Assembly: GCA_012960805.1 (NCBI GenBank)
Contig: DUAO01000016.1
Span: 1-37,393 of the forward strand
Direction of reading: 5' to 3'
Length of the DNA: 37,393 bases
From: Flavobacteriales bacterium
Lineage (GTDB): Bacteria > Bacteroidota > Bacteroidia > Flavobacteriales > BACL11
The notes under the pieces are model-generated. The model ran no database searches, had not been told where the DNA came from, and saw only the letters and a list, made by a program, of their open reading frames with translations. The position numbers were made by a program, and so were the translations under genes. Positions 1,115 through 8,342 of the stretch are shown here, piece after piece. Position 1 is the stretch's first letter; the number at the start of each line of letters is the position of its first letter.

Positions 1115-2812
1115 TTATGCATGCTGTAATTTCTCCAGCTGTTCTTCAATTTTTTCATCTTCAATTTTATTGAATAAATGGATAGCAGGGTTTATTTTAT
1201 GATGATCACTTATAATTTTCCCTCCAGCATCACTCCAACTGATATTATTTATTGCTAATATCTCTTTTAGCTTATTAGATGAAAATGGCATAAACGGTTC
1301 TGATAAAATTGCTAATGATGCTGCAATTTGCATAGCGATATTGAGGATTGTTTCTGTTTTTTTTTCATCTGTATTTTTCAATTTCCAAGGCTCAGTATCG
1401 GCTAAGTATTTATTCCCTAATCGTGCTAGATTCATGAATTCTCCAAGCGCTTCCCGAAAACGGTATTTTTCAATTGAAGCTCCAATCTTCTCAGGAAAGA
1501 CTTTAAGTTTTGCTAAAACTTCCTTATCATAATCATCTAAATTATTGCAAGCAGGAACTACACCCTCCCAATATTTATGAGTAAGTACTACTACACGATT
1601 AATAAAATTTCCAAAGATGGCAACTAGCTCATTGTTGTTTCTTGCCTGGAAATCAGCCCAAGTAAAATCATTGTCTTTACTTTCGGGGGCAGTTGCGCAA
1701 AGAGCATAACGCAAGGAATCTTCTTGGCCTTTAAAATCTTCTAAATATTCGTGTAGCCAAATAGCCCAATTCTTTGAGGTTGATAGTTTTTCCCCTTCTA
1801 AATTTAAGAATGAGTTTGCAGGGACATTAGACGGCAAAACATATCCTCCATGCGCTTTTAGAATGATTGGAAAAATAATACAATGGAAAACAATATTGTC
1901 TTTCCCAATAAAATGGATAAGTTCAGTATCTTTATTTTTCCAATAATCTTCCCAATTTTTTCCTGAATCATTTGCCCATTGTTTTGTAGCTGATATGTAT
2001 CCAATTGGTGCGTCCAACCATACATAAAGCACCTTACCATCTGCATCTTTTACTGGCACTTTAACCCCCCAATCTAAATCTCTTGTCATTGCACGGGCTT
2101 TTAGTCCCCCCTCAATCCAAGATTTGCATTGACCCAAAACTTGACTTTTCCATGTTTTTGGATCATGATGATTCTCTCCTTCAAGATCCCCACTCTCTAT
2201 CCAATCTTTTAGCCATTTTTCATGGTTTTGCATTGGCAAATACCAATGTGAAGTTTCTTTTTTAATAGGAGCGCTCCCGCTTAATGTAGATGTAGGGTTT
2301 ATCAATTCATTAGGACTTAAAGTGCACCCACACTTCTCACACTGATCGCCATACGCCCCAGCAGCATTACATTTTGGACACTCGCCCGTTATATATCTGT
2401 CAGCTAAAAATTGTTTATTTTCTTCATCATAAAATTGCTCAGAAGTTTTTTTAGTAAAAACATCTTTTTTTTCTAAAGTTCTGAAAAAATCTTGTGCCGT
2501 CTCATGGTGTAGCTTATCAGAAGTACGGTGATAGATGCTAAAATCAATTCCAAAATCAGAAAATGCCTTTTTGTTGATATTATGATATTTATCTACAATT
2601 TCTTGAGGACTAATCCCTTCTTTTTTTGCTTGCAAAGTAATAGCAGCACCATGTTCGTCTGAACCACAAATAAAAGCAACATCATGCCCCTTTCCTTTTA
2701 AATACCGAACATAAATATCGGCTGGCAAATAGGCACCAGCAATATGCCCAATATGTAAAGAGCCATTTGCATAAAGCAGAGCTGAAGTAACAGTGTATCT
2801 TTTTTTAGTCAT
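1115..2812 (-). CDS. metG: Methionyl-tRNA synthetase, short form without C-terminal tRNA-binding domain
   Basis: Charges tRNA-Met with methionine in the cytoplasm. The 565-residue protein has the class I HIGH motif (residues 20-23), the zinc-knuckle cysteines C145/C148 and C158/C161 of the MetG1 type, and the KMSKS loop as KLSTS (342-346), followed by the anticodon-binding helical domain. It ends in a charged helix ([10 protein letters not shown]) exactly where flavobacterial homologues of about 690 residues continue into a linker and an EMAP/Trbp111-like OB-fold that binds tRNA and dimerises. Only 36 bp separate its stop from the esterase ATG, so the missing domain is not hidden behind a frameshift. 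A perfect TATCTTTG promoter box lies 26 bp upstream. The family call is certain; the lack of the OB domain is read from the length and the C-terminal sequence. Confidence 0.97.
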
Positions 2813-2838
2813 TTATTTTATAAAAAGATTTATTTTCG

Positions 2839-2846
2839 CAAAGATA
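2839..2846 (-). promoter_or_regulatory. Bacteroidota -7 box for metG
   Basis: The minus strand reads TATCTTTG, a perfect match to the Bacteroidota TAnnTTTG -7 element, 26 bp before the metG ATG. The plus strand immediately beside it (2831-2838, TATTTTCG) is a one-mismatch box for the divergent LD-carboxypeptidase gene, so the two promoters are nearly back to back. I see no clear -33 TTTG for either. Confidence 0.6.
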
Positions 2847-2862
2847 AGTTTAATTAGTAATA

Positions 2863-3759
2863 ATGATAATTCCTGAAAAATTAAAAATAGGCGATAAGAT
2901 TGGCATTGTTTCTACTGCTAGAAAAATTACTTTGGAAGAATTGAGTCCAGCAATTAAATTGTTGGAAAATTGGGGGTTTGAAGTGGTGTTTGGGGCTAAC
3001 TTATTTGAAGAAAATAATCAGTTTTCAGGAACGATTGGGCAAAGAACTGCTGATTTGCAAAGTATGATAGATAATGATGTAATTAAAGCAATTTTATGTG
3101 CACGGGGTGGTTATGGGACGGTTCAGATTATTGACAACATCAATTTTTCTAGCTTGAAAAAAAATCCGAAATGGATTATTGGCTACAGTGATGTTACGGT
3201 TTTACATTCTCATTTGAATAACTTGGGGACTGCAAGTTTGCACGCTACTATGCCGATTAATTTTGAAAATAATTCTAATGAATCCCTTCAAAGTTTAAAA
3301 AATTCCCTTTTAGGCAAATCAAACAGAATAGAATGCAAAAGTCATACCTTTAATCGCTTAGGGCAAGTAGATGCTGAAATAGTAGGAGGGAACCTTTCTA
3401 TTTTGTATAGTTTATTGGGGTCAAATTCGGATATTGATACAGAAGAAAAGATTTTATTTATTGAAGATTTGGATGAATACCTCTATCATGTTGACCGAAT
3501 GATGATGAATCTTAAACGCAATGGAAAACTAGCTAAATTAAAGGGATTAATAGTAGGAGCAATGAACGATATGAATGATAATGAAATATCTTTTGGCAAA
3601 TCAGCTGAAGAAATAATTTTGGAATATACTAAGGAATACGATTACCCCATTTGCTTTGGTTTTCCAGCAGGTCATATAAATGATAATAGATGCATAAGAT
3701 TAGGAGTGAAGTCAGTGTTGAAAATAACTGAAAATGACGTAAGTTTGTTTCAAGAATAA
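2863..3759 (+). CDS. LD-carboxypeptidase, peptidase family S66
   Basis: Cleaves the L,D peptide bond that releases the terminal D-Ala from murein tetrapeptides during peptidoglycan recycling; a related S66 role such as microcin C immunity is less likely. The Ser-Glu-His triad of the family is visible: Ser109 in IIGYSDVTVLH, Glu201 in FIEDLDEYLYHVDR and His271 in GFPAGHINDNR. The RGGYG loop that precedes the nucleophile is also present. The length of 298 residues is normal, and there is no signal peptide, as expected for cytoplasmic LdcA. It is divergent from metG. Its stop is followed after 7 bp by the relic of an aminotransferase gene. Confidence 0.92.
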   Translation: MIIPEKLKIGDKIGIVSTARKITLEELSPAIKLLENWGFEVVFGANLFEENNQFSGTIGQRTADLQSMIDNDVIKAILCARGGYGTVQIIDNINFSSLKKNPKWIIGYSDVTVLHSHLNNLGTASLHATMPINFENNSNESLQSLKNSLLGKSNRIECKSHTFNRLGQVDAEIVGGNLSILYSLLGSNSDIDTEEKILFIEDLDEYLYHVDRMMMNLKRNGKLAKLKGLIVGAMNDMNDNEISFGKSAEEIILEYTKEYDYPICFGFPAGHINDNRCIRLGVKSVLKITENDVSLFQE

Positions 3760-3766
3760 AAAGAAT

Positions 3767-3832
3767 ATGAGCTCAGAAAATTATTTTAAACCTTTCAGAG
3801 AAAATATAGTTGGTAGAGATCAAATCTTATAA
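3767..3832 (+). pseudogene. 5' relic of a class-V-fold PLP-dependent aminotransferase gene (21 codons)
   Basis: An ATG 7 bp after the LD-carboxypeptidase stop opens a 21-codon frame, MSSENYFKPFRENIVGRDQI plus Leu, then TAA. From memory of the family, flavobacterial aminotransferases/cysteine-desulfurase-like proteins begin with a pattern such as YFxPFRxNIVGxxQxF, followed by SPYG, KKIIYADW and TASGRLY. The frame here matches only this N-terminal stretch and stops where SPYG should begin. None of the three plus-strand frames after it continues the family sequence, because the convergent gatC starts at the next base. I infer a deletion that removed the rest of the gene. Alternatively the frame could still be translated as a short peptide. 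The identification rests on about 15 recognisable residues. Confidence 0.55.
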
Positions 3833-4123
3833 CTATTTTTTTAAAACAGTTGGCACTTTAAAATAATCAGAATCTTTTTGCGGAGCATTTTTAAGTGCAT
3901 TTACTTGTGAAACTTCATGCGCAATTTCATCTGCTCTTAAAACATTCACTTCATCACTAAGGTAGATAAGTGGCTCAACACCTTCAGTATCTATCTCAGA
4001 TAATTTATCTACAAAACCTATTATTTTATCTAGGTCTCCCTTCATCTTTTCGGCTGATTTTTCATCAAACTTCAGCTTTGCTAAGCGTGACAAATCCTCT
4101 ATGAGCTTGTTATTTACTTCCAT
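3833..4123 (-). CDS. gatC: Aspartyl/glutamyl-tRNA amidotransferase subunit C
   Basis: Small subunit of the GatCAB complex, which converts Glu-tRNA(Gln) and/or Asp-tRNA(Asn) to the amidated forms; GatC stabilises GatA. The protein shows the family signature: an N-terminal helix with LIEDLSRLAKLKFDE, then EKMKGDLDKII, the DTEGVEPLIY core and the C-terminal DYFKVPTVLKK that packs on GatA. The frame also opens two codons earlier at 4129, but MEVNNKLIEDL at 4123 fits family N-termini. It overlaps the end of the upstream acyltransferase gene by 14 bp, implying translational coupling. gatA and gatB are not in this window. It converges with the aminotransferase relic, with no spacer. Confidence 0.93.
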   Translation of the reverse strand: MEVNNKLIEDLSRLAKLKFDEKSAEKMKGDLDKIIGFVDKLSEIDTEGVEPLIYLSDEVNVLRADEIAHEVSQVNALKNAPQKDSDYFKVPTVLKK

Positions 4124-4850
4124 AAGCATTTAATTGTTCAAAAATAGTATTGTAAACTGAAGTATTCAAATTTTGAATTGTTTTTTCAGTTAAGGTTATT
4201 GGGTCGATTGCTTTATGCACTTTTACCCTAACAATCCCTGGGTAACCTTTAAAATATTCTTGAGGAAACATATTTTTATTATCGGGCATAGTAATGGGAA
4301 TAATGTTTATGTTTTGTTCAATAGCTAATCGGAAAGGACCGTTTCTAAACTGTTTTAAGAAAATATCTTGTTTAGGGATTCCTCCTTCTGGAAATAAGCA
4401 CATGCTTAAGCCACTTGTTAATTTTTTGCCAGCTTTTAAAAATGCGGCATAGGCATCACGCTTGTTTCCCCTGTCAACAATAACAGCATTGTTTTTATAA
4501 AAATAGCCAAATAATGGGATTTTTGCAATTTCTGATTTCCCCATAAATTGTAATGGCACAGGAAGAATTGCCAAAACAAATGGAATGTCTAAGGTAGAAA
4601 CATGGTTAGGACAAAAAATATAATGCCCCTTTCTATCTAATTTTTCTTCCCACTCAATCCTAGGATATATAAATGAGAAAAATAAAGTAAGCTTTGACCA
4701 ATAGCGAGTAAGGTGGCAGACAATTTTATTATTTTTATAAATAGCTGTAAAGAAAAATAGTGCAGGAATAAAGACTATAAAGGCCAAGATAAAAACGATT
4801 AAAAACCATATTCGCCAAAGTGAACTTAAAAGATAGCCTATCCATTTCAT
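4110..4850 (-). CDS. plsC: 1-acyl-sn-glycerol-3-phosphate acyltransferase (PlsC family)
   Basis: Transfers an acyl chain to lysophosphatidic acid to make phosphatidic acid at the inner membrane. Block I of the family is NHVSTLD (His83, Asp88, the HX4D catalytic pair) and block III is FPEG (153-156). An N-terminal hydrophobic stretch (about residues 6-37) anchors the protein. The length of 246 residues is typical. A perfect promoter box TATCTTTG lies just 4 bp before the ATG, so the transcript is probably leaderless or nearly so. It leads a two-gene unit with gatC. The assigned reaction is the family's usual one, but other lysophospholipid acceptors cannot be excluded. Confidence 0.93.
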   Translation of the reverse strand: MKWIGYLLSSLWRIWFLIVFILAFIVFIPALFFFTAIYKNNKIVCHLTRYWSKLTLFFSFIYPRIEWEEKLDRKGHYIFCPNHVSTLDIPFVLAILPVPLQFMGKSEIAKIPLFGYFYKNNAVIVDRGNKRDAYAAFLKAGKKLTSGLSMCLFPEGGIPKQDIFLKQFRNGPFRLAIEQNINIIPITMPDNKNMFPQEYFKGYPGIVRVKVHKAIDPITLTEKTIQNLNTSVYNTIFEQLNAYGSK

Positions 4851-5869: not shown

Positions 5870-6288
5870 TGCCAGATAAACGCATCATTGATTTTATAAA
5901 GAATCATCATCTATTAACACTTGCAACTAGTAAAGATGATGCACCGTATTGTTGCAATGTATTTTATGTATATAATGAGAAAAATAATTCTCTTATTTTT
6001 TCATCTGAAACCAAAACTAAACATGCTATAGATTTTATAGACAACCCAAATGTTGCGGCTAGTATTTCCTTAGAAACTAAAGATATTGATAAAATACAAG
6101 GGGTACAACTTTTAGGAAGAGTAATAGAACCTAAAGGAGAGGAAATTAACAATGCAACAAAGCTATATCTAAAGGGATTTCCTTATGCACAAAAGATGAA
6201 ACTATATCTTTGGGAAATGAAACTTACCTTTATAAAAATGACCCATAATAAATTGGGTTTTGGTAAGAAGTTGATTTGGGAAAAATAA
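5869..6288 (+). CDS. UPF0306 / YhbP-like protein, pyridoxamine-phosphate-oxidase fold
   Basis: A 139-residue protein with the split-barrel flavin-binding fold of the PNPOx-like superfamily. It resembles E. coli YhbP along its length: an N-terminal helix and strand with HHLLTLATS, then SSETKTKHAIDFIDNPNVAAS, the IQGVQLLGRV strand and the closing LGFGKKLIW that is characteristic of the UPF0306 family. The biochemical role of this family is not established, and flavin or heme binding is only suggested by the fold. It overlaps trpS by one base (TAATG), so it is translated from the same mRNA. It converges with the PKD lipoprotein gene after 5 bp. Confidence 0.8.
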   Translation: MPDKRIIDFIKNHHLLTLATSKDDAPYCCNVFYVYNEKNNSLIFSSETKTKHAIDFIDNPNVAASISLETKDIDKIQGVQLLGRVIEPKGEEINNATKLYLKGFPYAQKMKLYLWEMKLTFIKMTHNKLGFGKKLIWEK

Positions 6289-6293
6289 TTATC

Positions 6294-7040
6294 TTACTGA
6301 AGCCATTGAGCATCTAACGTCATATCTACACCGCTACTAATAATATTAATTTCTGTAGGATATTCATCACCTTCAGTAGAGACATAATCGTTTGGAGTAA
6401 AACTACACGAACCAATAAATTCATTTCCTCCGATTCCAGCCACCACATCATTATCCCAGAGTTCAATAGTATAATCTTGTGATAGATTATTTACGACATA
6501 GGGTAAATTTTCTGTAAATAATATTGGAAAGACCGATATATTGTCTTGAGAACTTGATGAAGCAACCTCAGTGCCGCCTTGTTTTAGTACATAAAAAACA
6601 TCTGGATCGCTTGTTAAGCCAGTGATATCCCAATCCCAATCAGATCCATTGTTAGTCATAGGCATTGCATCAATTTTAATACTAGATAATGTTAATCTAG
6701 AAGGTGCTGAGGAGACAGTGATAGTGTCTATTATTATATCCTCATGATCTAAGATGCTAGCAGTTAACGACACAGTATAATTTCCGCCTAATGTATAAAG
6801 ATGTGTTGGATTCTCTTCAGTTGAAAAATTTCCATCTCCAAAATCCCAATAATATGTATCTGAATTTGCTGAATAATTAGTGAAAACAAATAAAGTAGGG
6901 GCAAAATCATTACTAGCAGTATAGCTAAAGTTTGCAACAGGCAAATTAACATCATTAATAGCCGCAACAATATCATCTTCTTTTTTACAAGTTGTAAAAA
7001 GTAGTGGTAAGCAAAGTAATATGAGTAGTAGTTTTTTCAT
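6294..7040 (-). CDS. Surface lipoprotein with PKD domain and C2-like domain
   Basis: The N-terminus is a lipoprotein signal ending in LLFTTC (Cys18). The mature protein begins CKKEDD, which fits the Lys-plus-acidic export signal described for surface-exposed Bacteroidota lipoproteins. Residues about 34-110 form a PKD domain (core YYWDFGDG, 63-70). Residues about 115-225 look like a C2 domain: TSDPDVFY (Asp145, Asp147) and ELWDND (Asp196, Asp198) sit where C2 Ca-binding loops carry their aspartates, and FIGSCSF follows as in the C2 family. I infer a Ca-dependent adhesin or binding protein at the cell surface. The C2 assignment is by pattern only. A TATATTTG promoter box is 16 bp upstream, so the gene is probably monocistronic. 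Confidence 0.75.
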   Translation of the reverse strand: MKKLLLILLCLPLLFTTCKKEDDIVAAINDVNLPVANFSYTASNDFAPTLFVFTNYSANSDTYYWDFGDGNFSTEENPTHLYTLGGNYTVSLTASILDHEDIIIDTITVSSAPSRLTLSSIKIDAMPMTNNGSDWDWDITGLTSDPDVFYVLKQGGTEVASSSSQDNISVFPILFTENLPYVVNNLSQDYTIELWDNDVVAGIGGNEFIGSCSFTPNDYVSTEGDEYPTEINIISSGVDMTLDAQWLQ

Positions 7041-7056
7041 AACATTTAAATTTCCC

Positions 7057-7064
7057 CAAATATA
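7057..7064 (-). promoter_or_regulatory. -7 box for the PKD lipoprotein gene
   Basis: The minus strand reads TATATTTG (perfect TAnnTTTG) 16 bp before the ATG at 7040. It sits in the 36 bp between the amidohydrolase stop and the lipoprotein start. Confidence 0.5.
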
Positions 7065-7076
7065 TATATAAATAAA

Positions 7077-8342
7077 TTATCTGTTTTTATACTTCTTAAA
7101 AAGTTCCTTTTGGTGGTTGTTTAGGTCTACTGCTTTGCCTTTAATATAGGCTTTTTCTACATTGTTAGTACGCATATCCAAAGCATCTCCAGTGCTGATA
7201 AAAAAGCTAGCGTCTTTCCCTCTTTCGATAGAACCACAGTATTTATCAATTCCTAAAATTTTGGCGGTATTTAAAGTAATTGCAGAAATGGCATCTTCAT
7301 AATCCAGGCCATAAGCTACAGCAGTACCGGCAGAAAAAGGTAAGTTTCTGGCACCCATAGCTTCCATATCCCCCTCATAACTTAGGCAAAATAAAATCCC
7401 CGCTTCTTGTAATTTTGTTGCTTGTGTGAAAGGCTCATCTACCGGGCTATCTTCACTATTAGGCAGCCTATGCACCCTGTTAAGAATAAGCGAAATATTA
7501 TTTTCTTTTAATATATCAGTAATTTTAAGCGCATCTTCAGCGCCTACAATAACGCTTTTGGTAATTTCAAAATCATTAGTAAAAGCAATAGCGTCAAGCA
7601 TATCACTTGCATTATTAGCATGCATGTAAAGCGTTTTACTTCCATTAAATAAGCCCTTCATACTTTCCATTTGCAAATCCATTAAGCCGGAAGAGTTAGC
7701 GTAGGAATTTGCTTTTTTGAAAAAGATTTTTAGTTGAGCAATACTCTCATTATATTTTTCATTTTCATTAATAGTACCTGGTTCCGCCCACCAACCACTT
7801 TGGTGAAAGGAGGATGGCCAGTTAAGATGTATTCCATCATCCGATTTAAGGGAAGCATCTTCCCAATTCCAGCCATCTAAATGCATTACTGATGATTGAC
7901 CAGAAATCATTCCTCCTCTTGGCGTTACTTGGGCGATTAGCACACCATTACTCCTTACTGTTTTGGCTATTTTGGAATCTGTATTATAAGCAATCAAAGT
8001 ACGTACATTAGGGTTTATGGCGCCCGTTTCTCTGTAATCATGTGAAGCACGAACCTGATCAATTTCCGTAATTCCTAATGTAGTATTGGGCACAATAAAG
8101 CCAGGATAAAGGTGTTTTCCGTGCACACGATAAATGGTGTCAAAAGCAGTAGGGTCAATGCGAATTCTTGTTGCATCAGCAACCATTCCAATTTTTCCAT
8201 TAAGCATACTAATGGCAGCATTTTCTATCTTTTCCCCATTTCCTAAATGAGCAGTTGCTCCCATAAATAAGGTAGGTCTCTGAGCGTTTGCACCCACTGT
8301 AATCAGTAATGCAATTAGAAGGGGTAGGTATTTTTTATTCAT
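7077..8342 (-). CDS. Exported amidohydrolase-family protein, active-site HxH lost
   Basis: A 421-residue protein with a clear signal peptide (residues 1-20, ending GANA). It has the amidohydrolase/imidazolonepropionase layout: an N-terminal beta-sandwich, a TIM barrel, and the closing motif ILGIDKYCGSIERGKDASF. The first barrel strand, normally GFIDxHxH, reads GFIVPNTT: the Asp is Val84 and the two metal-binding His are Asn86 and Thr88. This makes hydrolase activity doubtful; a structural or binding role with the upstream protein is possible. The ATG at 8342 is preferred over 8357 because the signal peptide then starts with MNKK. It overlaps the upstream amidohydrolase gene by 8 bp. Relatives as pairs of about 1000 and 430 residues are, to my knowledge, common in Flavobacteriia. 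Confidence 0.8.
   Translation of the reverse strand: MNKKYLPLLIALLITVGANAQRPTLFMGATAHLGNGEKIENAAISMLNGKIGMVADATRIRIDPTAFDTIYRVHGKHLYPGFIVPNTTLGITEIDQVRASHDYRETGAINPNVRTLIAYNTDSKIAKTVRSNGVLIAQVTPRGGMISGQSSVMHLDGWNWEDASLKSDDGIHLNWPSSFHQSGWWAEPGTINENEKYNESIAQLKIFFKKANSYANSSGLMDLQMESMKGLFNGSKTLYMHANNASDMLDAIAFTNDFEITKSVIVGAEDALKITDILKENNISLILNRVHRLPNSEDSPVDEPFTQATKLQEAGILFCLSYEGDMEAMGARNLPFSAGTAVAYGLDYEDAISAITLNTAKILGIDKYCGSIERGKDASFFISTGDALDMRTNNVEKAYIKGKAVDLNNHQKELFKKYKNR

Follow-up and report, generated by a model that had tools for sequence, protein, structure and literature searches.

The 37,393-nt contig DUAO01000016.1 of the Flavobacteriales bacterium assembly GCA_012960805.1 (hereafter the window) carries a 66-nt, 21-codon open reading frame (ORF), MSSENYFKPFRENIVGRDQIL followed by a stop codon, at positions 3767–3832 of the forward strand, between ldcA and the convergent gene gatC. 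Our analyses indicate, with a probability of about 0.95, that this frame is a deletion remnant of a gene for a pyridoxal phosphate (PLP) enzyme of the class-V fold, which some related bacteria still possess in its full length at the same place. The genome to which the window belongs (G000, the window being its contig C16) is an assembly of 1.57 Mb in 127 contigs with a completeness of 96.9%.

The ldcA–gatC interval was read in 18 genomes, a comparison that the original prediction had itself proposed. An intact gene of 488–491 codons, the 5′ end of which matches the short frame, occupies the interval in seven of them, namely G010, G013 and G011 of the same genus (488 amino acids) and G019, G016, G015 and G014 of the same family; the interval is 3–100 nt long in the other 11. 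The N-terminus of the G013 protein, MSLEKYFTPFRNNVVGRDQTFSSPFGEQKIIYADWTASGRIY..., has a start matching the stub and is identical to it in 14 of 21 residues (BLOSUM62 score of 76), the best score among 24,975 other stop-free 21-codon segments taken from all six frames of the window being 23. At the DNA level, 52 of 58 bases agree with the start of the G013 gene, and no other position in the window exceeds 31/58. A DNA search of 40 genomes showed the matches to G013 and G010 to break at query bases 1425/1429, inside the stub, and both genomes have about 1.4 kb of extra DNA at this point. The proposal, made initially from the sequence alone, that the stub represents the N-terminus of a class-V-fold PLP enzyme is thus borne out, and so is its description as a short frame between ldcA and gatC that abuts the latter (its end lies one base before gatC). 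It had also been suggested that the frame stops exactly where the family continues with SPYG; the family motif does follow, but the break lies about three codons earlier, and its form in the intact genes closest to the stub is SPFG, with SPYG or TPYG confined to some more distant ones.

A junction alignment shows that the window lacks 1401 nt (467 codons) relative to both G013 and G010. Retained are a head of 58 nt (3767–3824, forward strand; 19 codons and one further nucleotide, 83% identical to G010), a short junction and the end of the original gene including its TAA (junction and end together being TCTTATAA, 3825–3832, forward strand, as aligned to G013 and G010). The TAA of the stub occupies the position of the original stop codon and directly abuts the stop codon of gatC, an arrangement present also in the intact G010 and G013. 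The precise deletion envisaged in the original prediction is therefore confirmed as a deletion, yet the gene was not simply cut off at codon 21: the missing part begins near codon 20 and extends to the end of the gene, where the last few bases and the TAA are those of the original end. A protein search for a full-length orthologue elsewhere in G000 found none, its sole match being a SufS-like paralogue of 29% identity (at 96.9% completeness a small gap remains), and a translocated copy was rejected on this ground. One might suspect that the metagenome-assembled genome has collapsed a gene which the organism in fact carries in full, considering that the assembly is split into 127 contigs. However, the same deletion, further diverged, occurs in the sister genome G005, which comes from a different data set, and no other copy exists in the whole assembly, so that we regard an artefact of this kind as exceedingly improbable. 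Loss of the gene from this site, as originally claimed, is accordingly upheld by the intact sisters, the lack of an orthologue elsewhere in G000 and the deletion common to G005.

The reverse course of events, in which the short frame came first and G010, G013 and others acquired the full-length gene behind it by a later insertion, finds some room in unpolarised (Fitch) parsimony, which needs just 10–11 changes (10 when G011 is pruned) and hence leaves space for some gains. Yet bases from either end of the full-length gene survive in G005 and G000, other genomes keep its tail alone or a head together with a long tail, and the gene sits at this single site in all 16 carriers of the family, including G021 of the rooting clade; we consider a later insertion hardly credible.

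The original prediction already mentioned, as an alternative, that the frame is a short peptide that has been kept. Selection might have retained it after the gene loss as such a peptide, or as a leader translationally coupled to ldcA, the stop codon of which lies 7 nt upstream. The stub in G005, however, lacks one nucleotide and carries a nonsense change of CAA to TAA; counted from the ATG, its frame comprises 13 codons. Differences between G000 and G005 at first, second and third codon positions number 5/3/2 in the stub, 21/13/51 in ldcA and 4/1/9 in gatC, so the third-position share is 2/10 in the stub versus 60/99 in the two neighbours combined (Fisher P = 0.019). Five codons differ between the stub and G013 (2/2/2 by codon position), every one of them altering the amino acid. 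The 21-mer by itself matches no Pfam family, and sister clades retain no head whatever. The remaining stub codons show no constraint in this comparison of two genomes, and because the G005 stub is broken and the third-position excess is missing, we reject the notion of a kept peptide, which we deem very unlikely.

The G005 sequence reads ...GATTAAAGCTTGGAA before gatC, and the ancestral junction was probably GATCAAA joined to GCT, with AA common to both ends. Several points must be held against our interpretation: this AA microhomology is too short to tell from chance, one extra base at the junction lacks explanation, the net loss of 467 codons leaves the reading frame unchanged and preserves the original stop in a window copy that is an open frame, just as a kept peptide would predict, and the constraint test is small (two genomes, 10 differences), for only these two genomes carry this deletion allele.

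The loss was originally described as recent, but the deletion precedes, with or without recombination, the separation of G000 and G005 at this tract and so cannot be called very recent. The two genomes differ synonymously by 0.29 in ldcA and 0.16 in gatC (dS of 0.37 and 0.18, respectively), and by approximately 0.47–0.52 in metG, plsC and trpS (chi-square P < 2e-5 for each of the three against ldcA and gatC combined). Their identity along the window is likewise a mosaic, being 86–96% at 2801–4200, 73–76% at 2001–2400 and 74% at 4201–4600. The deletion thus sits in a locally less diverged tract, which suggests recombination around it.

The intact gene encodes a class-V-fold PLP enzyme matching the Pfam family PF00266 (Aminotran_5) with an E-value of 3.1e-43 (148.6 bits versus a gathering score of 21.5). 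With the SufS-like cysteine desulfurase superfamily it shares this fold family as well as the SPHK and RGGCSCAG motifs, which are found in 16 of 16 family copies, and its best matches in the PDB are cysteine desulfurases (E-value of 2.2e-28). It differs from SufS proper, however: although SufS (TIGR01979) is its best NCBIfam match, the 129.7 bits obtained fall far under the cut-off of 475.1, and we therefore rejected the identification of the lost gene as a SufS cysteine desulfurase. Where intact, the gene is under purifying selection, with a dN/dS of about 0.07–0.08 in three pairs (G010/G013, dN 0.060 and dS 0.74; G015/G058, 0.020 and 0.28; G014/G042, 0.046 and 0.70).

Orthologues were found by protein search in three of the 14 genomes of the genus (six others gave only matches of 28–29% identity) and in 16 of the 52 genomes of the family, and a match with an E-value of 1e-60 or better exists in 57 of 196 genomes sampled from the order. 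The gene adjoins gatC in all 16 family carriers, at a distance of at most 62 nt in 15 of them and of about 520 nt in G054, and ldcA lies directly upstream in 13; no ldcA is present between metG and the enzyme gene in G023 and G048, or in the stretch fetched from G022. Within the genus the enzyme gene starts 7–8 nt after ldcA, and the lost gene was therefore probably read together with it, which leaves the characterization of the stub as promoter-proximal unproven. Outside the family, searches with the window's own proteins in 20 loci (from 20 of the 47 matching genomes of the order) detected no other gene of the locus up to about 1.5 kb away from the enzyme gene, and the gatC-linked arrangement thus looks family-specific.

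Remnants of other kinds occur elsewhere in the family. Tails alone, comprising about the last 15–29 nt, persist in G004, G006, G008, G009 and G012, and merely 2–3 nt separate ldcA and gatC in G001, G002 (with a contig break inside gatC) and G007. G064 keeps nucleotides 1–37 and 1221–1454 of the G021 gene (numbered from the first aligned codon), the missing 1194 nt being bounded at both ends by a 10-nt direct repeat, AAAAAATATT; G063 keeps some bases of the head and nucleotides 1317–1454, with about 1313 nt missing. A recognisable remnant thus exists in nine of 29 genomes without the intact gene, when weaker matches (E-values of 0.009–0.05) in G045, G046, G020, G017, G059 and G060 are treated as chance and seven of the 52 family genomes, in which gatC had no match, are left unplaced. 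The differences in structure among the remnants indicate no fewer than three separate deletions in the genus.

For the history of the losses we relied on a tree of MetG, GatC, PlsC and TrpS from 45 genomes, several deep nodes of which have support of only 64–81. Dollo parsimony counts 19 losses on the 45 taxa, or 15 with G011 pruned; the Fitch count for the full set is 11 changes. A tree of ldcA and gatC groups G000 and G005 with the intact G010 and G013 (support 100), apart from G007 and G001. The four-gene tree nests the intact G011 among the tail-remnant genomes, a placement due in part to the metG of G008, which has the look of a recombinant sequence. The ldcA and gatC tree has G011 outside the tail-remnant group (weak support of 57); in the plsC tree, G011 groups with four of the tail-remnant genomes to the exclusion of G012 (support 99). 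Since the trees place G011 differently, the tail remnant may have arisen once or more than once. We may tentatively speculate, though we rather doubt it, that the slot between ldcA and gatC is a recurrent deletion site (about 15 losses on the four-gene tree, by different deletions, in one family of small genomes), with deletion alleles possibly passed between lineages by homologous recombination in the flanks, as the mosaic identity between the window and G005 might indicate. If that were true, gene loss itself would be horizontally transferable here.

The gene upstream of the remnant, ldcA (2863–3759, forward strand), codes for an LD-carboxypeptidase (Peptidase_S66) recognized by PF02016 in its N-terminal domain (E-value of 6.5e-35) and PF17676 in its C-terminal domain (1.3e-30), and is separated from the start of the lost gene by a leader of 7 nt (3760–3766, forward strand) that is similar in G005, G010 and G013; gatC (3833–4129, reverse strand) matches PF02686 (5.2e-22). 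A structural RNA or a terminator at the site was considered and rejected: no Rfam family matched there above chance (the single match, with an E-value of 0.5, was far under its gathering score), no terminator-like site was found there, and promoter-like sites numbered eight versus 6.5 expected. The ldcA gene is also being lost: it is missing from G048 (L138) and G023 (L154), which still have the enzyme gene, both genes are absent in G024 (L135) and G047 (L139), and an internal piece of ldcA in G004 (L124), residues 155–255, is unmatched. In G008 (L125), metG is in several pieces, with 93% identity to G011 and 90% to G009, the stretch from ldcA to trpS being 99–100% identical to G009, a pattern that is likely due to recombination or an assembly error. 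G060 (L155) and G059 (L156) have an ldcA–gatC interval of 184 nt, alike in both and no more similar to the lost gene than chance would give, in which a separate small ORF may lie. Further along the window, about 1 kb at 6001–7100, including an ORF at 6294–7040 (reverse strand), is without counterpart in the aligned G005 stretch.

We envisage that the family ancestor had the gene order metG, ldcA, class-V-fold PLP enzyme gene, gatC, plsC and trpS, and that the lineage leading to G000 and G005 lost codons 20 to approximately 487 through a single internal deletion, roughly 1.4 kb long, probably by slippage or end-joining at the very short shared sequence AA. The first 19 codons were thereby joined to the original stop and the few bases before it. 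The remnant has drifted since then, the window copy being open by chance and the G005 copy broken, and the gene was presumably dispensable in this lifestyle. The locus thus offers a well-resolved snapshot of gene loss in a small-genome lineage, in which one site can be seen with the intact gene, with several different intermediate remnants or with no trace of the gene, and it singles out an uncharacterised PLP enzyme that the family could repeatedly do without. It also illustrates that a very short open frame next to a conserved gene may turn out to be a leftover gene end and not a novel small protein, and that a comparison with sister genomes detects such cases.

We found no publication on this locus among the open-licence PMC papers searched. 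The stub is a new case, clear-cut though unexceptional, of a familiar process, namely parallel gene loss leaving deletion remnants. In the study of Buchnera intergenic spacers (PMC3164680), the same gene is described as having been inactivated more than once, in separate lineages and through different mutations, and the likeness extends to deletion remnants in reduced genomes; the bacteria considered here are, in contrast, small-genome and probably free-living marine Flavobacteriales, and their losses proceeded mainly via internal deletions, as opposed to the homopolymer frameshifts of Buchnera. Work on the reductive evolution of Streptococcus agalactiae (PMC3637634) reports RecA-independent deletion between short direct repeats, to which the 10-nt repeat at the deletion ends in G064 bears a likeness, whereas the ends in G000 share only AA.
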